Shown: one piece after another, positions 1 to 14,763 of the stretch
Layout of the letters: every line of letters starts with the position of its first letter
Numbering within the stretch: position 1 is the first letter of the stretch
From: Verrucomicrobiota bacterium
Lineage (GTDB): Bacteria > Verrucomicrobiota > Verrucomicrobiia > Verrucomicrobiales > Akkermansiaceae
Direction of reading: 5' to 3'
Assembly: GCA_004294095.1 (NCBI GenBank)
Contig: RDZR01000030.1
Span: 1 to 64,000 of the forward strand
Length of the DNA: 64,000 nucleotides
Made by a program: the position numbers and the translations under genes
The notes under the pieces: generated by a model
Seen by the model: only the letters and a program-made list of their open reading frames with translations
Told to the model about the DNA's origin: nothing
Database searches by the model: none

Positions 1-222
1 CTCATCCATGAAAATCTGGTTTGAAAGTTGCGTCTTTTTGACGTTTTCTAACAACTTTGTTCCCGTGGTGATTTGCGGGTTGCGCGCCTCACCCATGAAG
101 AGGCAGTTGCGTCGATAGATCCCCTGTTGGTTGCGAGGAATGCCGTCAAACAATGCGACGGTGCTTTTGACAGCATCCGCTTGGTGAGGCAGATCCGGGT
201 CGAAATGGAATGTGACGCGCAT
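1..222 (-). CDS. res: Type III restriction enzyme Res subunit, N-terminal fragment
   Basis: Only the first 74 residues lie in the window; the frame runs open through base 1. The start ATG is at 222-220. The N-terminus reads MRVTFHFDPDLPHQADAV, followed by VALFDGIPRNQ. This matches the typical opening of type III Res proteins, in which a beta strand, a Q-D-A helix and a LFxGxP segment precede the DEAD-box helicase core. The helicase and nuclease motifs lie outside the window, so the call rests on this short match and on the Mod methyltransferase two genes upstream on the same strand. The known family role is ATP-dependent translocation and cleavage of DNA in a complex with Mod. Confidence 0.7.
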   Translation of the reverse strand, partial: MRVTFHFDPDLPHQADAVKSTVALFDGIPRNQQGIYRRNCLFMGEARNPQITTGTKLLENVKKTQLSNQIFMDE

Positions 223-223
223 G

Positions 224-256
224 AAAAGGATGAAGTATGAGTTATGAATGATGAAG
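224..256 (+). repeat. AAGGATGAA / AATGATGAA repeat, left flank of S23 gene
   Basis: The plus strand carries AAGGATGAAG, then TATGAG, then AATGATGAAG. The same words recur in the opposite orientation at 634-649 on the other side of the four-helix-bundle gene, so that gene has imperfect inverted flanks. Related copies are at 3471-3486 and 3641-3710. Confidence 0.6.
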
Positions 257-258
257 AT

Positions 259-627
259 TTAGAGGCCGTCTTTTGTCTTCTTTGAGATCGTGGTGAAGAT
301 GGCGAGGAGTTGGTTGGTTTCGTCTTGGAGGGACGCGAGCTTGGTTGGCGTGACGATTCCGGATTCGGTTAGTAGCTCTAGCCAGTAGGCGGTTTCATCC
401 AGTTCTTTGAGACAATCGCCGACTTTTGAGATGAATTCAGCTTTTGAGCGGGCGCGGTAGGCTTCGCGGTAATTCGCTCCAACGGATGTGCCTGAGCGTA
501 GCACTTGCTTGCCTAACACCCGTGCTTCTTCCGTTTTCGGCAATGCTACAAACATCCGAACGATCCGAAGGCCAAAAACCTTCGTCCGCTCTCTCAATTC
601 CTGTGGCTCTTTCTCTTCTTTCATCAT
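259..627 (-). CDS. Four-helix-bundle protein, S23/Avd family
   Basis: This 122-residue protein matches the S23 family (TIGR02436-like), first known from 23S rRNA intervening sequences; the diversity-generating retroelement accessory protein Avd belongs to the same fold. Recognisable features are an early F-x-x-R-I-V-R-M-F helix, the conserved QVLRSGTSVGANYREA segment (about residues 42-57), and the later ELDETAYWLELL helix. The fold is known to form pentameric helical bundles, and its cellular role is mostly unknown. It lies between mod (gap 21 bp) and res (gap 36 bp), an unusual place since mod and res are usually adjacent. No reverse transcriptase or template/variable repeat is nearby, so a retroelement role is not supported. 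Confidence 0.85.
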   Translation of the reverse strand: MMKEEKEPQELRERTKVFGLRIVRMFVALPKTEEARVLGKQVLRSGTSVGANYREAYRARSKAEFISKVGDCLKELDETAYWLELLTESGIVTPTKLASLQDETNQLLAIFTTISKKTKDGL

Positions 628-633
628 TCAACC

Positions 634-649
634 TTCATCATTCATCCTT
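634..649 (-). repeat. AAGGATGAATGATGAA repeat, right flank of S23 gene
   Basis: On the minus strand this 16-mer overlaps the stop codon of mod by one base and precedes the S23 start by a few bases. An identical 16-mer stands on the plus strand at 3471-3486. It may double as a ribosome binding region, because AAGG occurs twice just before the S23 ATG-ATG start. Confidence 0.65.
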
Positions 650-2754
650 TAAATAAATTCCACGGTGTAAGCGGTTCCAAGGTCGCCGTGGTGTTTATGG
701 ATCTCTGCTTTGAGGCGGCGGAAGGTTTCATCCTTGAGGGCGATGTCGGTTCCGAATGCCGAGTCGCGGAAGAAATACTTGTTCGGCGTCGGTTCGATGG
801 CTGCGAGGGATTCGACGAGTTTCTGAGTGATTTTTTCCTCCAGGCAGATGAGGTAGGCATCCGCGAAGAGGTAAGTGCGTTTGGCCGTTGTGATAGGTTT
901 GGTGATGGTGCCAGTGAGCGGGATGTTGGATTGCCGAAGCATCAACTCATAGACCACGTCGGTGTCCGTGTAGCCAGGGACGAAATCGAGTGCGTCTTGC
1001 GTGGTTAGGCCAGCTTCTGCAATGATGTCCTCGCCGCGTAGGTCTTTCTTGAGCCAGTTGATCTTGGTGTCCTCGATGCGGAAGGACTTGAAGCCGATGT
1101 CGAGTGCGTCTGGGGCGATGATGTAGGGATTGGTTTCCTCAACGGCGGCATCGTCCAGTTTGAGCTTGCCGCCTTTTTTCGAATCGAGTGCTTTTCGTTC
1201 TTCCCAATCGGCTTGTTTGGATCGCAACTCCTGGTTGATTATTTTACCAGTGCGACGGATTCGTTCTTTTCCGATTTCGGGTATGCTTTTGAAGCCAGCT
1301 TTTGATGCTTCGCTGTCTTCGCCGCAGCTCTCTGAGAGCTGCGCCAATATAAATTTTCGAACTCCTCCATCTTCGGCATTAAGCTGCATGACGGCATGTG
1401 CTGTGGTTGCACTGCCAGAAAAGAAATCCAGAATGATGTCGTCTTTGTTTGTCAGATATTGACACAAACGGTTGATGTCTCTCCAGTTTTTTGGGTTTTC
1501 AAACACACGAGATCCAAAAATTTCGACGAATTCCATAGTTGCCGTTTGGGCATAACTAAAATTAACACTTCTCATTACTTGGCCTTCACCATCAAATAGG
1601 TATCTGGCTTGTCTCGGCATTGTAGTGTGATCTTCTCCAAAGACTACTCTTCCTGATTTCACTGCGGCGTCAAAGCCTGCTTTAGTTGGATATACCCATC
1701 CTCCTTTAGGTTGCTTGCAAGGCTTTCCTGTCACAGGGTGCGTTACTTCGTAATGAGGACCTTTGCCGCCAGGCCATGAAATATCACCATCATCTCGGTA
1801 TGGCCCTTTGGGTCCGACTTTTGAGAACCTGCCAATTTTTTTGAATTCATCACTTTCAGGAATCACGTTAAAGTATTTTCTCCACTCCTGCTGGATTTGG
1901 TCGTAATTATCTCCATGTTCTTCTTTTAGGCTCAGATAGATTTCCAAGGCCTTTTCAATTCCATATTTTGGCTCTCTAAATACTACATCCTGAATGCGAA
2001 GCAGTTCCGGGTTTTTAGCATAAACTACCATGTATTCATGGCCTACGGAAAAGTAGCGTGCATCATTTTTTCTATTTTTATCCCAGACCAATGTGGCTAA
2101 TTCATTGGTTTCCCCAAAGACTTCCTTGCAGAGTCTTTTTAGATTATCAATTTCAGCATCATCGATGCTAATTAATATTACTCCGTCATCCCTGAGTAAG
2201 TCCTTCGCTGCTCTGAGCCGAGGATACATCATGTCCAGCCAACGGGCATGAAATCGATTGGAGGTTTTTTCGTTTTTAACCAACCGTTTTCCCTCTTCAT
2301 TTACCGTTCCTTCCTCTTGGTCACTTTCCTCTCTCTTCGCTGTGAAATTGTCTCTATATACGAAGTCCTTCCCTGTGTTGTATGGCGGATCGATATAGAT
2401 CATTTTCACCTCTCCATAGTAATTCTGTCGGAGAAGTTTCAGAGCTTCGAGGTTGTCACCTTCGATGTAAATGTTCTGCGTGGTCTCGCTGTTTATCCCA
2501 TCGTCCTTGAGCGCGAGTGTTTTGCCGAGCAGCGGCTTAAAGGCTTCTTTCTTCGCCGCCTGTTTGCCGACCCAGTTCAGTTCGTAGGTTTCGTCTCCGG
2601 GCTTGATTTCCTCGAAGTCCCCGAGTTCGGCGCGAAGAGCTTCCATGTCGAGCCCGCCGTCCTTCACGGCGGCTGGGAAGAGTTCGCTGAGTTTGGCGAG
2701 GTTTTCCGAAATGGGATCGGAGATTTGTTGGGGAACTTTCGGGTAGTCAGGCAT
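649..2754 (-). CDS. mod: Type III DNA methyltransferase Mod (adenine-specific)
   Basis: This 701-residue protein has the amino-methyltransferase motif DPPYNTG at residues 122-128 and the SAM-binding motif DFFSGSATTAHAV at about 443-455. The catalytic motif precedes the SAM motif, which is the beta-class arrangement of type III Mod subunits. A target-recognition region fits between them (about 220-420). The family methylates adenine in an asymmetric site and directs the Res subunit. The start ATG is 4 bases after the stop of the PIN-domain gene, so the two are probably co-transcribed and translationally coupled. Length is usual for the family and both motifs look intact, so activity is likely. 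Confidence 0.95.
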   Translation of the reverse strand: MPDYPKVPQQISDPISENLAKLSELFPAAVKDGGLDMEALRAELGDFEEIKPGDETYELNWVGKQAAKKEAFKPLLGKTLALKDDGINSETTQNIYIEGDNLEALKLLRQNYYGEVKMIYIDPPYNTGKDFVYRDNFTAKREESDQEEGTVNEEGKRLVKNEKTSNRFHARWLDMMYPRLRAAKDLLRDDGVILISIDDAEIDNLKRLCKEVFGETNELATLVWDKNRKNDARYFSVGHEYMVVYAKNPELLRIQDVVFREPKYGIEKALEIYLSLKEEHGDNYDQIQQEWRKYFNVIPESDEFKKIGRFSKVGPKGPYRDDGDISWPGGKGPHYEVTHPVTGKPCKQPKGGWVYPTKAGFDAAVKSGRVVFGEDHTTMPRQARYLFDGEGQVMRSVNFSYAQTATMEFVEIFGSRVFENPKNWRDINRLCQYLTNKDDIILDFFSGSATTAHAVMQLNAEDGGVRKFILAQLSESCGEDSEASKAGFKSIPEIGKERIRRTGKIINQELRSKQADWEERKALDSKKGGKLKLDDAAVEETNPYIIAPDALDIGFKSFRIEDTKINWLKKDLRGEDIIAEAGLTTQDALDFVPGYTDTDVVYELMLRQSNIPLTGTITKPITTAKRTYLFADAYLICLEEKITQKLVESLAAIEPTPNKYFFRDSAFGTDIALKDETFRRLKAEIHKHHGDLGTAYTVEFI

Positions 2755-2758
2755 GGAG

Positions 2759-3172
2759 TTAGTTTTTCAAAAATGGGTTGATGACACGAACGGTGTCGTA
2801 GTTTTGCCCAGGGTTGAGGTCTTCGGACAAGAGCTCAATGCAGCCCGCGGAGGCTGCGGCGGCGAGGATGGCGGCATCCCAGTAGGAAGTCTGGTAGCGT
2901 TTTTTGATGTCGAGGGCATCCTGCATGATCTGCACGGTGAGTGGGACGATGCGGTGTCGCAGCCAGTATTGGATGAGTGCGGTGGCCTCTTGGTGGGTCA
3001 GAGGGTCGGTGCGGGTGGGTCGTGTGGCCTGGACATAGAATTCTTGGAGCACCTGCACTGAGAGGGTTAGGTTTGGGTCGTTCAGGATTGCTTTGGCCTT
3101 TTGGTTTTTTTCAGCTTCCTCGCTTTGGGTGGAGATTGCGTAGAGGAGAATGTTGGTATCGACGAAGGTCAT
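2759..3172 (-). CDS. vapC: PIN-domain ribonuclease, VapC-like toxin
   Basis: This 137-residue protein opens with FVDTNILLYA (acidic Asp5) and also has QEFYV (Glu44), SYWDAAILAAA (Asp99) and LLSEDL (Glu117/Asp118). These acidic positions are the metal-binding residues of PIN nucleases. Its ATG shares one base with the stop codon of the upstream antitoxin gene (TGATG), the usual arrangement for a toxin-antitoxin pair. VapC toxins cut tRNA or rRNA; the target here cannot be read from sequence. The pair sits inside the restriction-modification operon, directly before mod. Confidence 0.88.
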   Translation of the reverse strand: MTFVDTNILLYAISTQSEEAEKNQKAKAILNDPNLTLSVQVLQEFYVQATRPTRTDPLTHQEATALIQYWLRHRIVPLTVQIMQDALDIKKRYQTSYWDAAILAAAASAGCIELLSEDLNPGQNYDTVRVINPFLKN

Positions 3173-3420
3173 CAGCGGCGGCTTTCGTAGAGGGCTTCGC
3201 GGGATAGGTTATCACGGCATGAGAAGGCGGGGTGGCGGCTGGCGATTTCCGCGAGCAAGGTGTCCAGCTCGGGCGCGGGTTTTTCGTTGAGTGTCTCGGT
3301 GGCCGCGAGGGTCTGAAGGTATTGTTTCACGAGGGAGGAGACGGACGTATCGCGCCGGGCGGCGGCAATGCGCGCCTTGCGGTAGGTTTCCTCATCGAGG
3401 GAGAGGGTGATATTTTTCAT
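3172..3420 (-). CDS. vapB: Ribbon-helix-helix antitoxin, VapB-like
   Basis: This 82-residue protein has a ribbon-helix-helix N-terminus: strand KNITLSLDEETY, then helices AARRDTSVSSLVKQYLQTL (about residues 1-40). The remainder (about 45-82) is polar and is the likely toxin-binding tail. It overlaps the vapC start by one base. Such antitoxins neutralise the PIN toxin and repress their own promoter, so an operator is expected in 3421-3530; I could not define one. Confidence 0.82.
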   Translation of the reverse strand: MKNITLSLDEETYRKARIAAARRDTSVSSLVKQYLQTLAATETLNEKPAPELDTLLAEIASRHPAFSCRDNLSREALYESRR

Positions 3421-3470
3421 AAATTTTGTGTATCACGGTTTCACAGTAACACAAGAAATTATGAAATATG

Positions 3471-3486
3471 AAGGATGAATGATGAA
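3471..3486 (+). repeat. AAGGATGAATGATGAA repeat, solo copy
   Basis: This is an exact copy of the 16-mer beside the S23 gene (634-649), here on the plus strand and 51 bp upstream of vapB. With the array at 3641-3710 it forms an inverted pair around about 150 bp that contains no convincing gene. Confidence 0.65.
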
Positions 3487-3640
3487 AGTTGAGAGAGGGA
3501 GGGAAGTTTTTGGGCTTATTAGGGTGAGATAGGTAAAATGTGTTGTGCTTATCATGGAGAGTTTGGGTCGGGGGGATATTTATCTACGAAAAACACGAAG
3601 AACACGAAAGGAAGACGGAGGTGTTGATTTCAAAAGATTT
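3487..3640. other. Intergenic spacer between inverted ATGAAGGATG-type repeats
   Basis: No gene is supported here. The segment holds a short direct-repeat stretch, CACGAAGAACACGAAAG, near 3594-3610. From memory, strings of this type are often seen beside four-helix-bundle and GxxExxY genes. It may be an emptied or decayed copy of the element that carries the S23 gene at 259-627; this is inference. Confidence 0.35.
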
Positions 3641-3710
3641 CATCCTTCATCCTTCATCCTTCATCCTTCATCCTTCATCCTTCATCCTTCATCCTTCATC
3701 CTTCATCCTT
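3641..3710. repeat. Tandem 7-bp repeat, 10 perfect copies of CATCCTT
   Basis: Seventy bases made of ten uninterrupted CATCCTT units (AAGGATG on the minus strand, which is the transcribed sense of this operon). Each unit contains a Shine-Dalgarno-like AAGGA run and an ATG. Because 7 is not a multiple of 3, the array passes through all frames and meets TGA in each. The 3' end of the DUF4391-like gene (stop at 3689-3691) lies inside the array. Confidence 0.95.
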
Positions 3711-4402
3711 ATTGCTTCGATGGCGGTTTTGATGGCGGTGTTGAGGGTGGCTTTTTCGGCGAGGGAACGGGTGCGGTCTTTTTTGGTTCTGAGGGATTGG
3801 AGTTCGGTGAGGGCGCGGAACAGGGCAAGGATGGTGGGGCCGTGGAACCAGAGCTTGGTATCGAATAGCTGGGGTGCGCCGATGAAGATCTTGGGGTGAT
3901 CGAGGAGGAAGGCTTTGGCCATGGCTTCCAGGTAGTGGTCGCGCTTGTTGAGTCGGTTGATTAGCGCAGTGTGACGGAGCGGTGCGAGTGATGCGGCGGC
4001 AGCGTGAATTTCTGTGCAATAGGAGTCGGTGACGACGACGGCGTTTTCTTCGGTAAGGCTCAGGCGTTTGTGGGCGAAGGAGAGGGCGAAGCGCCCGCTG
4101 CCGTCGCGGAGGTGGAGGACTGCGTGCTCCTTCATCTGGGGCTGGATGGTGCGAGCTGCGAAGTCTGCTTGGCGAAGATCGGTGAGTTCGATGTCGAGGA
4201 AGATAATGGCTTGGCAGCGGTATTCATCGGTGATGAGCGATGGGATGTCCGTGCCTGTGAGTTGGTGGGTGAGTGTGGCTTTACGAAGAATTTTGCGCAG
4301 GCGGGCGCGTTGCGCCGTGGGCAGTGTGGACGGAGTGAAGGATTTGAGATTGAGGCGTTTGCCGTTGGATTCGACGCGCCAGGTTTCGGGGAGGTCGATC
4401 AT
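3689..4402 (-). CDS. DUF4391-like protein of the restriction operon
   Basis: This 237-residue protein opens with a short MIDLPETW segment, has a central IIFLDIELTDLRQADFAARTI stretch in beta-strand style, and ends in a helical tail. Size, the leading LP motif and position between an SNF2-type helicase and a type III Mod fit DUF4391 proteins, but the match is from memory and moderate. Its ATG overlaps the helicase stop codon by four bases (ATGA), so it is translationally coupled. The last residues (RMKDEG) and the stop are encoded by the 7-bp tandem repeat, so the native C-terminus may have been replaced when the array expanded or inserted. Function unknown. Confidence 0.55.
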   Translation of the reverse strand: MIDLPETWRVESNGKRLNLKSFTPSTLPTAQRARLRKILRKATLTHQLTGTDIPSLITDEYRCQAIIFLDIELTDLRQADFAARTIQPQMKEHAVLHLRDGSGRFALSFAHKRLSLTEENAVVVTDSYCTEIHAAAASLAPLRHTALINRLNKRDHYLEAMAKAFLLDHPKIFIGAPQLFDTKLWFHGPTILALFRALTELQSLRTKKDRTRSLAEKATLNTAIKTAIEAIRMKDEG

Positions 4403-7400
4403 GAGCGGAGGACGAGGAAGGAGATGAGTTCGAAGTCGTCCATGTCCTGTCCCGCGAAGGGGTTATCGTAGCCGCCGAAGTCAAAGACGGTGGATTCGGA
4501 TTGGGCGGCCTCGTGGCCTTGGATGGATTCGATGGCCTGGTTGAGAAGCTGGGAGCATGCGGACATGTCCTTGCAGTGGTTGGTTTCAGCGAGGAAGGAA
4601 CTGACGAGTTCCGGGAACGGTGTGCTTTGGCCGCGTGTGGATCGGCGCATGAATTTCAGGAGTTCGCGGGCTTGCCCTTTGCCAATGGGCGCGGAACCTT
4701 GGTCGGAAACGTAAACGAGGTAGTATGGGTAGAGGGAGCTATCGCTCTTGGGTTTTTGGGCGAGGTTTCGGTGTTTGAAGCAGAAGAGGACGCCGTGTTT
4801 TCTATCAGAATCTTCCGGTGCGTGGGTGATCGAGTAGATACCGCTGGGTGTCTGGCGGATTTCCGAGGTGTGCTTGAGATACTCGCTCAATTCATGAAGG
4901 TAGTCGTTCATGTTGAGATCTGTGAGCGATAGGTTTTCGTTGGCATCCTCCAATTCAATGACTTCGTCCTTGAGACGGGCGAGTTGGCGGGAACGGAATG
5001 AGATGTCGTTCATTTCCGGGCTGAGGTCATTCTCTCCCCCAGTAGCTGTTAGATTCACGCCGATCATTTTGCGTTTCACGCGCTCTTCGAGGCTGAGGTA
5101 TTCGTTGAGATCCAGATCGGGGAAGAAGTTGATCATTTTGATCTGGGTGTTCGTGGAGCCGATACGGTCGATACGCCCGAAACGTTGGATGAGTGTGACG
5201 GGGTTCCACTGGACATCGTAATTGATGACGCAGTCGCAGTCCTGAAGGTTCTGGCCTTCAGAGATACAGTCGGTTCCGATGAGGATGTCCACCTGTTCGG
5301 TGGCGGGGATTTCACGGCGGAGTTTGGAACGTGGGGAGAATGCGGAGAGGACGTTGTGGAATGTGGGAGCGACTTTGGGGTTGTTCACCCGTGGGGTATC
5401 CGAGCCGTAGATGAGCGCGGTGGTGAGGTCGTGGGTTGCCTTGAGGTCGGCGGCGAGTTCCTGATAGAGGTAGAGGGCGGTGTCCGCGAAGGCCGAGAAG
5501 ATCAGGATCTTCCGGTTGCCGGGGTTGTAGGGCATGGCGGTGATCTTTTCCGTGATCAGGCCGCGTAAGGTGTGGAGTTTGTGGTCGCGTTTTTCGTGGA
5601 GGATGGCTTTCGCGTCGGCGATAATTCCGGTGAGTAGATGGCGGTCTGCGTTGAGATCACGCAGGTATTCATCGACCATGAGGTGGGAGACTTTGATGTC
5701 GTATTTGTAGTCGAGGCCGGGGGCTTCATCCTCGGGGTTTTCAGCGTCTTCGATGTATTCGGCGCTGATGTCGCCGTCCTGGCTTTGGAGGGTATTGATG
5801 AACGCGTCGATTTTTTGAGTGAGACGTTGAAGGGTCAGGTGGAATGCTGCCACGGAACTGTCCAAGCGTTTGAAGAGGTTGAAGCGGTGCATCTTCGCGG
5901 TTTGGAATTCGCGGTCTTCGTGGCTGAAGATGACTTTATTGTTGTAGGTGGTCTGGTATTTTTCCCGGTAGTAAGCGCGGAACTCCGGCTTGATGTATTT
6001 CATCGGGATGTAAACGGCGAGAAGCAGCTCTTCGAGACGAAGGTTGGTGTTCTTGAAGTCGAGAAGCTCTTGGCGAGAGTCGATGTATGGGGTGTAGGTG
6101 TCGGGTTTGAGTTTTGTGGGAAACGGGCCGACGTCCGAGGATGAGTAGTGCTCGGTGATGTGCTTGCGGCTTCTGGATATTGTTAGAAGTTCAAGAATTT
6201 TGTAAAAGTCGGATGGGATGGCATCGAGCAGTTCGGCTTTGATTTTGGGTTCGCTCTCGTTCCAAGCGTTGATGGCGCGTGTGGTTTGTTGAAGGGTGTT
6301 TTGAACGCTGTGAATACCCTCGTTTTCAAATGCAGCATCGTTGTCGGCGGTGATGATGCTGATTTGGTTGCGCAGGTCGGTGAGGGAGTTGTTGACGGGT
6401 GTCGCGGAGAGAAGAAGAACTTTGGTGTTTTGGTTTTGTTGGATCACCTCCCTGAGCAAGCGTTGGTAACGTGTGAAGCCTTCTTCTTTTTCGACGCGGT
6501 TTCTGAAGTTGTGGGATTCGTCGATGACGACGAGGTCGAATTTCCCCCAGTCGAAACGGGAGAGGTCAAATCCACTGCGTGAATCCCCTCGCGTGCGCGA
6601 GAGGTCGGTGTGGAACATGATCTTGTAGTGGAATGTCTCGTTCAGGGTGCTGTCCTTGTAGGCACCACGGAAGGAATTCCAGTTGTCGTAGAGTTTTGGT
6701 GGGGTCAGAACGAGGACGTTGTCTTGGCGCAACTCGAAGTATTTGATGACGGCTAATGCCTCGAAGGTTTTTCCGAGTCCAACACTATCGGCGATGATGC
6801 AGCCGTTGTATTTGTTGATTTTCTGGATGGCGGAAAGGACGCAGTCTTTCTGGAAATCGTAGAGCATGTTCCAGATGGCGGTGCGCTTGAAGTCCAACGC
6901 GTCTTGCTCGAAGCGGGCGATGCCTTGGTCAAGCTGGTGTCCGAAGAGTTCGTTCAGGGTAAAGTAGTAGAGGAATTCGGGTGAGTGTTCTTTGTAGAGT
7001 GATTGCAGCCTGGTCAGGATTTCCTCTTTGTAGTCGAAAGTGAGATCCGGGTTGTTCCAGATCATGTCGAATTTGTGACGGGCAGCTTCGATCTGGGATT
7101 TGTCCATCGACTCGCTGATGATGCTGTCGAAGTTGATGTTGTGATGACCGGTGCGTGTGTTCTGGGCGGTCAGTTCGAGGGAGGAGGACCCCTGGATCAT
7201 GAAGTCCGCATCGACGAGGAGGATGTTGCCTTTGATTTTACATACGGGCGTCGTGCGCCGGATGTCGACGTGGGAGCGGATGAAGGCGGCCATCTGCCGG
7301 GCCTGCTCGAAGTGCTGGAGTTTGTTTTTTTGGGTAATGTCGTAGGCGTTGAAGAGCGCGTCGTTTGGGTTGATCTCGAATTCCCGTGCGAGTTCACCGA

Positions 7401-7578
7401 CGGGGAGGAACACCTCCTTGTCGCGGAGCAAGAGGTGGATGGAGTCCACGCGCTCAAGGCTGGATTCCAAGAGAGAGAAGACCGAGAGCGTGAGCTTGTC
7501 GTTGATGATGTTGACCGCAGAACCCGCCTCGTTTTTGTGGAGGTAAGCGCGAAGTTTATTTAGGAGTGCGGTTTCCAT
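4399..7578 (-). CDS. SNF2-type helicase with N-terminal PLD-like domain
   Basis: A 1,059-residue superfamily 2 ATPase. Counted from Met at 7578-7576, Walker A SVGLGKT is at 265-271, Walker B DESH at 353-356, SAT at 391-393, GTDCISEGQN at 768-777 and motif VI QRFGRIDR at 798-805. The N-terminal about 170 residues resemble a phospholipase D-like module: a CKIKG...DADFMIQGSSSLE segment ending at about residue 135, in which the HxK histidine is replaced by Cys. The HKD nuclease therefore looks degenerate. The frame extends 28 codons further to 7662, but the extra part is hydrophobic and unlike the family. It heads the operon, and its stop overlaps the DUF4391-like start. A role in a type III-like defence locus is inferred from context. 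Confidence 0.88.
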   Translation of the reverse strand: METALLNKLRAYLHKNEAGSAVNIINDKLTLSVFSLLESSLERVDSIHLLLRDKEVFLPVGELAREFEINPNDALFNAYDITQKNKLQHFEQARQMAAFIRSHVDIRRTTPVCKIKGNILLVDADFMIQGSSSLELTAQNTRTGHHNINFDSIISESMDKSQIEAARHKFDMIWNNPDLTFDYKEEILTRLQSLYKEHSPEFLYYFTLNELFGHQLDQGIARFEQDALDFKRTAIWNMLYDFQKDCVLSAIQKINKYNGCIIADSVGLGKTFEALAVIKYFELRQDNVLVLTPPKLYDNWNSFRGAYKDSTLNETFHYKIMFHTDLSRTRGDSRSGFDLSRFDWGKFDLVVIDESHNFRNRVEKEEGFTRYQRLLREVIQQNQNTKVLLLSATPVNNSLTDLRNQISIITADNDAAFENEGIHSVQNTLQQTTRAINAWNESEPKIKAELLDAIPSDFYKILELLTISRSRKHITEHYSSSDVGPFPTKLKPDTYTPYIDSRQELLDFKNTNLRLEELLLAVYIPMKYIKPEFRAYYREKYQTTYNNKVIFSHEDREFQTAKMHRFNLFKRLDSSVAAFHLTLQRLTQKIDAFINTLQSQDGDISAEYIEDAENPEDEAPGLDYKYDIKVSHLMVDEYLRDLNADRHLLTGIIADAKAILHEKRDHKLHTLRGLITEKITAMPYNPGNRKILIFSAFADTALYLYQELAADLKATHDLTTALIYGSDTPRVNNPKVAPTFHNVLSAFSPRSKLRREIPATEQVDILIGTDCISEGQNLQDCDCVINYDVQWNPVTLIQRFGRIDRIGSTNTQIKMINFFPDLDLNEYLSLEERVKRKMIGVNLTATGGENDLSPEMNDISFRSRQLARLKDEVIELEDANENLSLTDLNMNDYLHELSEYLKHTSEIRQTPSGIYSITHAPEDSDRKHGVLFCFKHRNLAQKPKSDSSLYPYYLVYVSDQGSAPIGKGQARELLKFMRRSTRGQSTPFPELVSSFLAETNHCKDMSACSQLLNQAIESIQGHEAAQSESTVFDFGGYDNPFAGQDMDDFELISFLVLRS

Positions 7579-7830
7579 TGGTGTCTGCAGTGAGCGATAC
7601 ACAAGTATGAACGAATACCAGCAGATGTTGACGGTGAATAAAACCTTCAAATTACCATACAAATATTAAAGTGTCGGCACGAAAATTGTTTCGATCTACT
7701 CTACTTTGCTAGCATGACTCATGACTCAGATAGTTTTTTCATCCCGGTGCATTCTACTTGGCTCAATGTGGCGACACGTAAAATTCCGCCATCGCTTTGA
7801 CAAGGCTAACAAAGCCAGTTAGTCATCGCC
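7579..7830. other. Divergent intergenic region, island/backbone boundary
   Basis: This AT-rich 252-bp spacer separates the minus-strand restriction operon from plus-strand asnS and must hold promoters for both. I found no hexamer pair good enough to call. The abundant TGTTAGA-type word begins at its right end (CTAACA near 7806) and continues to the right; to the left it is at chance level. This is therefore a plausible right boundary of acquired DNA. No tRNA or direct-repeat attachment site was seen. Confidence 0.4.
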
Positions 7831-12231: not shown

Positions 12232-13268
12232 GAGGCTTTGACTTCATCCCATGTCTTGGACCACAGCGAGAGAGCATCACCAAGATCGTCAGTGGCTTCA
12301 CATTTTGCGAAAACCTCGTCTGCTGGAAACAATGCTTCATTGCCGCGGAAGTCTTCCGTAAGCAGAGGATACGCGGTTTTGTTAGGCGCATGACACGCAA
12401 TGTTTTGCATGTTCTGAGCGGCGTTGTGTGGATCCGTGAAAAAATCGATAAACGCATGCGCGAGATCGCTCTGTGCCGATGTCTTCATGATGCAAAAATC
12501 ATCGCAGGTAAAAGCGGATCCTTCTTTGGGAATGCCGAGCGCGATGTCTGCATTTTCGTCGGCGACTTGGAGTAAATCGCTCGGGTATCCTTGCACGAGA
12601 TGGAATTCTCCTGAGACGATTCCGCCTTTGTATTGCTCGCTATCAAACTTGGCGATATTTGCCTTCCACCTGCGCACGAGATCGCGGGCTTGAGCGAGCT
12701 GCGCCGGATCGGCCGAGTTCAAGCTGAAGCCGAGCGTGAGCAAGGCGGCACCTAACACTTCGCGCATGTCATCTAACAATGTGGAGCGTCCTTTGAGCGC
12801 TTCATTTAAATACAATTCGTAGGTCGCAACCGTGCCGACAGGGGCTTTGCTTTTTAGCCAAGCAAGGCAGGTGCAGGCCATCATGTAAGGCACCGAGAAT
12901 TCCATTTTGGGATCGAGTGCTCGCGCTAAATAGAGCGGATCGACGTGGCTCAAGTTCGGAACTTTTGCGGCTTGGATCGGTTGCAGGAGATCTTTTCTTA
13001 CCATGGCTTTAATCATGTAAGAAGATGGCGTGAGCAAATCGTAACCAGTGGCACCGGCACTCAATTTTGCAAACATCGCTTCATTCGAATCGAAGGTGTC
13101 GATCAAGACTTTGCAGCCCATTTTTTTTTCAAACGCCGCAACGAGCGTGAGATCAATATAATCTGCCCATGTGTAAAGACGGAGTTCAGATGCTTCTGTT
13201 TTGGAGCATCCAATCAAACTGGCAGCGGAAGCGGCGGCGGCGGTGCTTAGAAAATTTCGACGGTTCAT
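12228..13268 (-). CDS. potD: PotD/PotF-type polyamine-binding lipoprotein
   Basis: A 346-residue extracytoplasmic solute-binding protein. The N-terminus MNRRNFLSTAAAASAASLIG with a following Cys combines a twin-arginine motif with a lipobox (LIGC), so a membrane-anchored, Tat-exported lipoprotein is likely. The mature part starts with ELRLYTWADYIDLTLVAAFE and has a YDLLTPSSYMIKAM strand, both typical of spermidine/putrescine-binding proteins (type II PBP fold). No ABC permease or ATPase gene is adjacent, which is odd for this family. It is coupled to the downstream secreted glycosidase. I took the start at 13268; 12 more in-frame residues upstream do not fit a signal peptide. Confidence 0.85.
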   Translation of the reverse strand: MNRRNFLSTAAAASAASLIGCSKTEASELRLYTWADYIDLTLVAAFEKKMGCKVLIDTFDSNEAMFAKLSAGATGYDLLTPSSYMIKAMVRKDLLQPIQAAKVPNLSHVDPLYLARALDPKMEFSVPYMMACTCLAWLKSKAPVGTVATYELYLNEALKGRSTLLDDMREVLGAALLTLGFSLNSADPAQLAQARDLVRRWKANIAKFDSEQYKGGIVSGEFHLVQGYPSDLLQVADENADIALGIPKEGSAFTCDDFCIMKTSAQSDLAHAFIDFFTDPHNAAQNMQNIACHAPNKTAYPLLTEDFRGNEALFPADEVFAKCEATDDLGDALSLWSKTWDEVKAS

Positions 13269-13395
13269 AGCGATGGAATGAGTGATGCGATGGCAAATAA
13301 ACACAAGATGCCAATTTCACGCCATGAAAATTTTTCGTGAGCGCTATCAGTTGATCGGTTGAAAAATACACCAGAGTCGCCAACGTATTCACTTT

Positions 13396-14763
13396 ATGAC
13401 GCAAAATCACGATCGCCGCCATTTCATCAAAACTTCGGGAGCCGCTTCGTTAGCGATGCTAGCTGCGGCACATGGCGTAGAGAGCCAACCTGCTGAGAAA
13501 TTACGTGTGCTGTGCATTGGCGTGGTAGGCTCGATTGGGACGGCGGACAGGCACAACGTCGCTTCGCACCCACGCGCTGAGATCACGGGACTTTGCGATG
13601 TGAATTCCATCGCTTTGGAAAGTGCTGCGCTTGAGCACCCCGCTGCGTTTACGTGTAAAGATTACCGCGAAGCATTTACGAAATATGGAGACCGTTTTGA
13701 TGCAGTCGTCGTCGCAACCCCAGACCACAGCCACGCATCGATCATGCTCATGGCAATGCTGCATCACAAGCACGTCTATGGCCAGAAGCCGTTGGTCCAT
13801 CAGTTAGAAGAGTTGCAAATGTTAGAACGCGCGCTTGATGCCCGCCCTAAGCTTTGCACGCAAATGGCGAATCAACGCATTGCAATTCCCGGACGCCGCG
13901 CGGCTGTGGAAATTTTACGCAGTGGCGTGCTTGGAAAAGCGATTTCCGCACACGTTTGGGTCAGCTCGCCGAATCATCGCGATTATTTTAATCTCGATCG
14001 TGTTCTAGCCGAGCCGAGTGAGCCACCTGCGGCGCTCGATTGGAATTTATGGCTCTGCGGGGCGCCGAAAGTCCCCTATCGCGTGGGCATTGAGCCGCTC
14101 GTCTGGCGTTCGTGGTGGGATTATGGCAGCAATGGTCTAGGTGATTGGGGATGTCATGTGCTCGACGTGCTTTTTTACGGCTACGATGAACTTAAATCAC
14201 CCATCGCTGTGCTAACTTCCGCGCCGGCGGCGGAAAAGCCGATGTTCCATTATCATCCATGCCGCTCGACGTTGACGTATGAGGTGGATTCTCCGAATTT
14301 TGCCCACAAAATTTTCCCTATCCATTTTAGCGATTCCGGCCAAGCCACATCGCGTGCCTCACTTGGCCTGCCTGCCGGAGAATTTCCGAATGACAACATG
14401 ACGCTGGTGGTTTGTGAAAATGGCATCCTCGCTCTCGCCGTCGATGGTGAGTTGGAAATTTGGCGCGATGGGAAAATGACTCTTGGCTTGGAAATGCCCG
14501 GATTGCCCGCGTTTCCAGAAATCAACCACTGGCATCAATGGGTCGATGGCTGCATCGGTGCGATCGATAAGGTGCGCAGTCCATTCCGCGATGGCATTCG
14601 CATCACCGAGCCAGGCATTCTCGCAGTGCGGGCTGCGCGTTTTCCAAATCAAGAACTACGCTGGGATCGCGCTAACCTACGCTTTACGAATCACGAAGAA
14701 GCGAGCGCAACCCTCGTGCGCTGCAATTACCGAGAAGGATTTAGGCCGCCTGAAGTTATCTAA
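13396..14763 (+). CDS. Tat-exported Gfo/Idh/MocA oxidoreductase
   Basis: A 455-residue protein with Tat motif DRRHFIK (6-12) and a hydrophobic stretch ending near residue 30. The NAD(P)-binding Rossmann segment LRVLCIGVVGSIG (36-48) and VVVATPDHSHA (about 104-114) match Gfo/Idh/MocA enzymes. The family's EKP motif is QKP here (130-132), a change at a conserved position. Such exported paralogues are numerous in Verrucomicrobia and Planctomycetes and are thought to act on sugars or inositols in the periplasm with bound cofactor. The substrate is unknown. The TAA stop lies inside a CTAACA word. Confidence 0.88.
   Translation: MTQNHDRRHFIKTSGAASLAMLAAAHGVESQPAEKLRVLCIGVVGSIGTADRHNVASHPRAEITGLCDVNSIALESAALEHPAAFTCKDYREAFTKYGDRFDAVVVATPDHSHASIMLMAMLHHKHVYGQKPLVHQLEELQMLERALDARPKLCTQMANQRIAIPGRRAAVEILRSGVLGKAISAHVWVSSPNHRDYFNLDRVLAEPSEPPAALDWNLWLCGAPKVPYRVGIEPLVWRSWWDYGSNGLGDWGCHVLDVLFYGYDELKSPIAVLTSAPAAEKPMFHYHPCRSTLTYEVDSPNFAHKIFPIHFSDSGQATSRASLGLPAGEFPNDNMTLVVCENGILALAVDGELEIWRDGKMTLGLEMPGLPAFPEINHWHQWVDGCIGAIDKVRSPFRDGIRITEPGILAVRAARFPNQELRWDRANLRFTNHEEASATLVRCNYREGFRPPEVI

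Follow-up and report, generated by a model that had tools for sequence, protein, structure and literature searches.

The stretch of DNA analysed here, henceforth the window, comprises positions 1 to 64,000 of contig RDZR01000030.1 from a Verrucomicrobiota bacterium of the family Akkermansiaceae. Positions 1-7662 resemble a defence operon with a SNF2-type helicase gene, a DUF4391 gene, a PIN/DUF6364 gene pair, mod and res. A gene of the S23 family lies between mod and res, and arrays of seven-nucleotide units border it on both sides. The relevant features are as follows.

1-222, minus strand: 5' end of a res-like gene (ORF), downstream of the putative cassette and cut by the contig end
223-648, minus strand: the whole insert from the mod stop to the res start, 426 bp
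225-255, minus strand: 3' arm of the putative S23 cassette, reading TTCATCATTCATAACTCATACTTCATCCTTT in gene sense; made of heptamers that repeat 620-650 in inverted form
259-627, minus strand: S23 (23S_rRNA_IVP) four-helix-bundle gene of 122 amino acids, start at 627 or 624, SVGANYREA clade
620-650, minus strand: 5' arm of the putative cassette, AAAGGATGAATGATGAAGGTTGAATGATGAA; shares bases with the S23 start and with the stop codon of mod (649-651)
649-2754, minus strand: mod (N6_N4_Mtase) gene, upstream of the putative cassette, PF01555 with 110.7 bits
2759-3420: PIN/DUF6364 gene pair
3461-3710, no strand assigned: S23-less inverted array of window-S23 heptamers, between the PIN/DUF6364 pair and the DUF4391 gene
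3461-3496: forward heptamer units of this S23-less array
3586-3609: AACACGAA-type 9-nt units inside it
3639-3710: its ten perfect reverse units (TTCATCC)
3689-4402: DUF4391 gene
4399-7662: SNF2-type helicase gene

With 69.7 bits against a curated cut-off of 33.8, the ORF at 259-627 is a member of the PF05635 family, and the structure PDB 2rld matches its product with E=2.7e-23. The ORF at 1-222 has no Pfam match on its own; we call it res because its full-length counterpart is the 817-aa ORF that follows mod in a related genome, G114. The S23 gene exactly bridges the mod stop codon and the ATG of the next gene (222-220), filling the gap between mod and res, and the original prediction that it interrupts this gene pair is thus borne out.

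The same prediction had described short words at one end of the S23 gene that recur inverted at the other end, at 634-649. A repeat search of the window confirmed real inverted arms, at 225-255 and 620-650, that are 31 nt long and 81% complementary; the copy at 634-649 covers just the right arm's outer half. Nor are the words isolated, since 7-nt units follow one another along each arm, and TRF finds a period of 7 at 620-649. Allowing up to two mismatches, GGATGAATGATGAA has 15 matches in the window versus 1.2 expected, a number reached by none of 100 shuffles. Across the 3.0-Mb host genome (G000), the heptamer word of the window has 20 matches versus none for a reversed control word. These fall in about six places, two of which are flanks of S23 genes: the window S23 gene, a second S23 gene on contig C9, the array at 3461-3710 of the window, another S23-less inverted array at C9:20042-20109, the start of contig C77 and one weak site on C66. 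A third S23 gene of the host, on contig C5, sits at a contig end beside AAATCTC repeats that are direct, not inverted. RNA folding of the window insert predicts that the two arms pair with each other (z -2.24).

The closest orthologues of mod within the order were sought and their junctions with res compared. In G114 the junction lacks S23, is 18 bp long and reads TTTAA GCCTCACTTTCTGATTCC ATG. The mod stop of G162 leads directly into GGATGAAGGATGAATTATGAATTATGAAA and then into a RhuM gene (PF13310), behind which at least 12 TTCATAA units reach the contig end. A single mod-res position is thus found in three states, empty (G114), with S23 (the window) and with RhuM (G162), and the heptamers adjoining RhuM are those of the window, i.e., arms and S23 are separable.

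Relatives of the window S23 gene, 62-85% identical in protein, occupy about five defence-gene contexts, in every case with GGATGAA- or GGTTGAA-type units (neighbouring genes at these sites were named from translated sequences, not from profile matches). The closest relative, 85% identical and found in G310, precedes pglX. Other copies lie after a SNF2 helicase gene and before an AlbA-like gene (G016), after a SNF2 helicase gene like that of G016 (G317, where the contig ends downstream before a 3' arm is reached), before hsdS (G329) and in another defence-like operon (G024). The copy on host contig C9 (L064, about 12700-13400 of the locus) is inside a broken hsdM-like gene whose middle part is missing. 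Codon substitutions indicate purifying selection on the S23 protein: dN/dS is 0.05-0.15 between the window gene and its relatives and 0.03-0.18 among the six closest S23 genes, for which most dS values are near saturation, and the least diverged pair, G016/G317, has a dS of 0.37 and a dN/dS of 0.07.

Two further observations were made at these sites. Contig C9 carries, 7.6 kb from the hsdM-located copy, an inverted element of 60 bp without S23. In G310, a Y1-type transposase-like gene splits pglX just downstream of S23 (L354, G310:C67, about 2233-3274, reverse strand).

Both lines of comparison put forward with the original prediction, i.e., mod-res loci of relatives and the flanks of other S23 genes, support its reading as a small mobile cassette. 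S23 is neither always present at the junction nor devoid of shared flanks elsewhere, since G114 and G162 lack the gene and the closest S23 relatives in five genomes and on C9 carry heptamers of the same type next to different genes (G317 without a 3' arm). On these grounds, we consider it probable that the window contains one copy of a small mobile cassette consisting of an S23 gene between inverted heptamer-repeat arms. Counting against this reading are the S23 loci that lack clear arms, the GGATGAA arrays of genomes in which no full-length window-type S23 gene occurs, the RhuM gene beside the heptamers of G162 and the direct repeats at the C5 copy.

Presence and absence could also be followed at two core operon junctions. 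Between metK and ahcY, both named from sequence, empty sites measure 21-43 bp and filled sites 450-544 bp. Flanks are 96.8% identical between an empty site of 21 bp (G257) and a filled one of 520 bp (G332), and 95.5% identical between an S23-filled site of 515 bp (G017) and one with an S23-less insert of 99 bp (G015). The nuoI-nuoJ junction was found empty (16-20 bp), with a solo arm, with an S23-less inverted insert (81-97 bp) and with S23. As read from these junctions and from mod-res, sites in close relatives switch among empty, S23-filled, other-gene-filled and S23-less states. Pairs of empty and occupied sites place the insertion just after the stop codon, with a native leader too diverged to delimit a target duplication. 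The metK-ahcY junction hosts two S23 clades that are about 50% identical and have different arms (AGACAG/AGACAC versus TTCAAGT), both arms matching within each; orthologous copies have AGACAG or AGACAC in both arms, kept in step.

Such conservation, together with the preferred position just after a stop codon between co-directional operon genes, would also be expected of a non-mobile regulatory device, in which the arms fold into an mRNA hairpin enclosing S23 whose cleavage, e.g., by RNase III, sets operon stoichiometry, while the variation among genomes reflects vertical inheritance and losses. The predicted pairing of the arms in RNA and the known cleavage of 23S intervening sequence stems by RNase III (PMC4990558) are in line with this idea. 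We nevertheless find it improbable, as one S23 clade occurs with the same heptamers at unrelated junctions, some copies lie inside coding genes, one copy is an internal-deletion derivative, and empty and filled sites coexist within nearly identical flanks.

To what extent such arms accompany S23 genes in general was assessed by comparing each 5' flank with the reverse complement of the gene's own 3' flank, with a score of at least 16 counted as arms. PF05635 genes occur in 37 of 39 related genomes, in which the mean score was 21.3 for a gene's own pair of flanks, versus 9.9 when flanks were mismatched and 9.4 in 367 control genes. Scores of at least 16 directly outside the ORF were reached by 78% of S23 genes versus 1.9% of control genes, which rules out that arms are a general trait of intergenic DNA in these genomes. 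For class-2 S23 genes, the subclass of the window gene (SVGANYREA and relatives), the proportions are 76% versus 8.8%. A scan of named genomes, for which a narrow S23 alignment was used as a broad one proved too diverse, recovered S23 loci from Planctomycetota, Clostridia, Bacteroidota, Acidobacteria, several Proteobacteria, Nitrospirae, KSB1, candidate-phyla-radiation bacteria and others, and arms were present at 75% of the 72 usable loci from many phyla versus 4.8% of mismatched pairs. About a quarter of S23 loci have no clear arms. A search of 20 distant S23 loci against Rfam, mostly loci whose arms were unclear or whose match frame was broken, gave no rRNA match.

The arms have a median length of 35 nt, are purine-rich on the 5' side and repeat with a period of 7, as the identity at lag 7 in related genomes is 0.56 versus about 0.25-0.30 at most other lags. 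Across the 103 elements with clear periodicity, the heptamers have a YRR core in common (3.03 bits versus a null of 2.54, sd 0.10). Transcriptional orientation is biased, with 129 S23 genes co-directional with both neighbours versus 10 opposite to both.

Heptameric simple-sequence repeats are over-represented in several bacteria for no known reason (PMC4692102, PMC4679880), and one could suppose that neutral repeats pile up in intergenic DNA by slippage and meet S23 genes incidentally. This account is contradicted by the complementary inverted arms at both ends of S23 genes and their near-absence from control genes; moreover, arms are built likewise in many phyla, with clade-specific words, and we regard the slippage account as scarcely credible.

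That words belong to clades became apparent when arm similarity was compared with S23 identity for pairs from different genomes and, by a strict synteny filter, different junctions. Mean similarity was 6.9 below 30% S23 identity, then 7.3, 7.8 and 8.5, and rose to 12.1 at 60-70% and 14.5 above 70%. The 54 pairs with at least 60% identity averaged 12.31 versus 7.27 (sd 0.51) after permutation, and none of 10,000 permutations was as high, in a tree-blind test on pairs that are not phylogenetically independent. Arms of S23 genes less than 50% identical had baseline similarity both at the same junction (6.9) and in the same genome (7.5), values that rule out the junction or the genome as what sets the arm sequence. 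By these comparisons, arm sequence tracks the S23 clade, not the site or the genome, as S23 appears at new sites.

This pattern bears on a further alternative, in which the arrays existed beforehand as sites of recombination or capture, where small genes such as S23, RhuM, ORF6N and others are swapped in by homologous or slippage-type recombination, S23 having no role in movement. The RhuM gene beside the same heptamers at the mod-res site would fit, as would an ORF6N gene (PF10543, L139:3048-3642) between related heptamers. RhuM (PF13310, L067:114-1155), like ORF6N, lies between arrays, i.e., other cargo occurs. Many arrays without S23 can likewise be counted for this alternative. Against it, arms follow S23 identity across sites and genomes, not the site, and S23 genes make up most of the arm-flanked genes among the 803 at the fetched loci, which had, however, been chosen for S23. 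We give the capture-site alternative little credence.

Several copies of the putative cassette lack a complete S23 gene. Between the arms of one locus (G325:C8), a window-type S23 gene has cleanly lost its interior, so that MKDEGNPDL is joined to RDENHQLLAIFTTISKKAK (deletion joint MKDEGNPDL/RDENHQ), at a junction resembling that of G016 and G317. Elsewhere, a short S23-less element is inserted in frame into a pglX-like gene (L385, G273:C6) with its heptamers translated (TKDEGRRMKDE...), which recalls Rickettsia palindromic elements. Two S23-less elements of G324 share the same interior at different places (L392, G324:C242, and L395, G324:C513); these are just two copies, so the interior is not highly repeated in that genome. 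Each has a host-like palindrome right at its left end, perhaps left behind when a copying step folded back (n=2). Such S23-less and internally deleted copies fit movement in trans, as far as their structure can be read. Four genomes (G324, G325, G273 and G019) contain many GGATGAA arrays and no full-length window-type S23 gene, so the notion that a cognate S23 is required wherever these arrays occur is unsupported; GGATGAA arrays can exist, or once spread, without window-type S23.

Inverted arms also flank a second type of single small gene. GxxExxY genes (PF13366, PD-(D/E)XK; L416-L445) have arms often built from 9-nt units such as CGCCAAGAG, and 93% of 28 loci score at least 16 versus 28% of mismatched pairs, the latter value being high because the 9-nt units are more alike. 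Some of these genes occupy the same operon junctions as S23 cassettes, e.g., before pheT (L416, L419, L427, L428).

S23 proteins are widespread and have been solved structurally. To our knowledge S23 is not a transposase, and we know of no transposase-like catalytic site in it. For the preferred reading, a small mobile S23 cassette, we propose a mechanism to which we give roughly even chances. A ring of five four-helix bundles would bind the cassette's own heptamer array, as hairpin DNA or RNA. Bound S23 would mark both ends for a mobilising activity, which might come from a nuclease of the host, from a transposase (Y1 or another type) or from a copying enzyme, and the same activity would move S23-less copies in trans. 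Y1_Tnp domains occur in 38 of the 39 related genomes, which speaks neither for nor against a Y1 transposase in this role. An oligomer reading arrayed 7-nt units would explain the period, the inverted layout and the tie between clade and unit, and each S23 protein should then be specific for its own cassette's heptamers and fail to recognise those of other clades. From the anatomy of the insert, we infer that co-directional operons may tolerate an insertion just behind a stop codon by virtue of arm pairing in the mRNA, which would fold the insert out of the way much as the inverted ends of 23S intervening sequences do. A homopentameric ring has been described for the S23 family member of X. campestris, as cited in PMC4990558, and PDB 2rld contains five chains.

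Among known systems, the closest are the intervening sequences (IVS) of 23S rRNA in Coxiella and Leptospira, in which an S23 ORF is located between complementary inverted ends in about 430-450 bp and which have been suggested to be selfish or mobile (PMC4990558). The window S23 ORF is likewise enclosed by complementary ends predicted to pair in RNA as a stem. In contrast to IVS, the cassettes lie between or inside protein genes rather than in 23S rRNA, their arms are heptamer arrays whose units are specific to a clade, and derivatives without S23 exist, as does other cargo. Heptamer arrays are known from intergenic DNA, as GGGAATC and GGGGA(C/T)T in Xanthomonas and Nostoc and as TAACTGA in Beggiatoaceae, cyanobacteria and Bacteroidetes (PMC4692102, PMC4679880). 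All resemble cassette arms in being tandem 7-nt units, which in Xanthomonas often form convergent inverted pairs, yet the term S23 is absent from the main text of both papers, whereas the cassette arrays are tied to S23 genes. Our literature search, which covered open-licence papers, found no paper linking S23 to heptamers.

Like MITEs and REP-RAYT elements, the cassettes are small inverted-repeat elements with gene-less copies beside fuller ones and internal deletion derivatives, and the G325:C8 fusion and the S23-less copies correspond to the non-autonomous internal-deletion copies of insertion sequences (IS) and MITEs. Their ends, however, are not the constant sequence typical of IS and MITEs: they are shared within one clade but vary from element to element in step with the S23 clade. 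The bAvd proteins of diversity-generating retroelements form a pentamer of four-helix bundles that looks related and may bind nucleic acid. Unlike in these retroelements, no reverse transcriptase was seen beside the window S23 gene, among the Pfam matches of the seven genes scanned near it. The GxxExxY genes share the layout of single small genes between inverted arms, although their fold is unrelated to that of S23 and their arms often use 9-nt units.

Together, the comparisons could point to a bacteria-wide, previously unrecognised class of mobile elements, a proposal that might equally turn out right or wrong: single small genes, S23 and in parallel GxxExxY, between inverted arrays of 7-nt or often 9-nt units, S23 reading the heptamer specific to its lineage (a YRR core and four variable bases) as the end, with 23S IVS as a special case and the heptamers of Xanthomonas, Nostoc and Beggiatoa as a footprint. 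Such a class would be set apart by lacking the rRNA location of IVS and the constant ends of IS and MITEs, by having no evident mobilising enzyme and by the tie between clade and unit, for which no precedent was found. The 23S IVS may be a special case of it, and would be one were their stems of the heptamer type. The data suggest that small cassettes enter defence operons, and junctions of core operons as well, with no recognised transposase involved, and they tie together three subjects, the S23 proteins, the heptamer repeats of bacteria and the spread of IVS.
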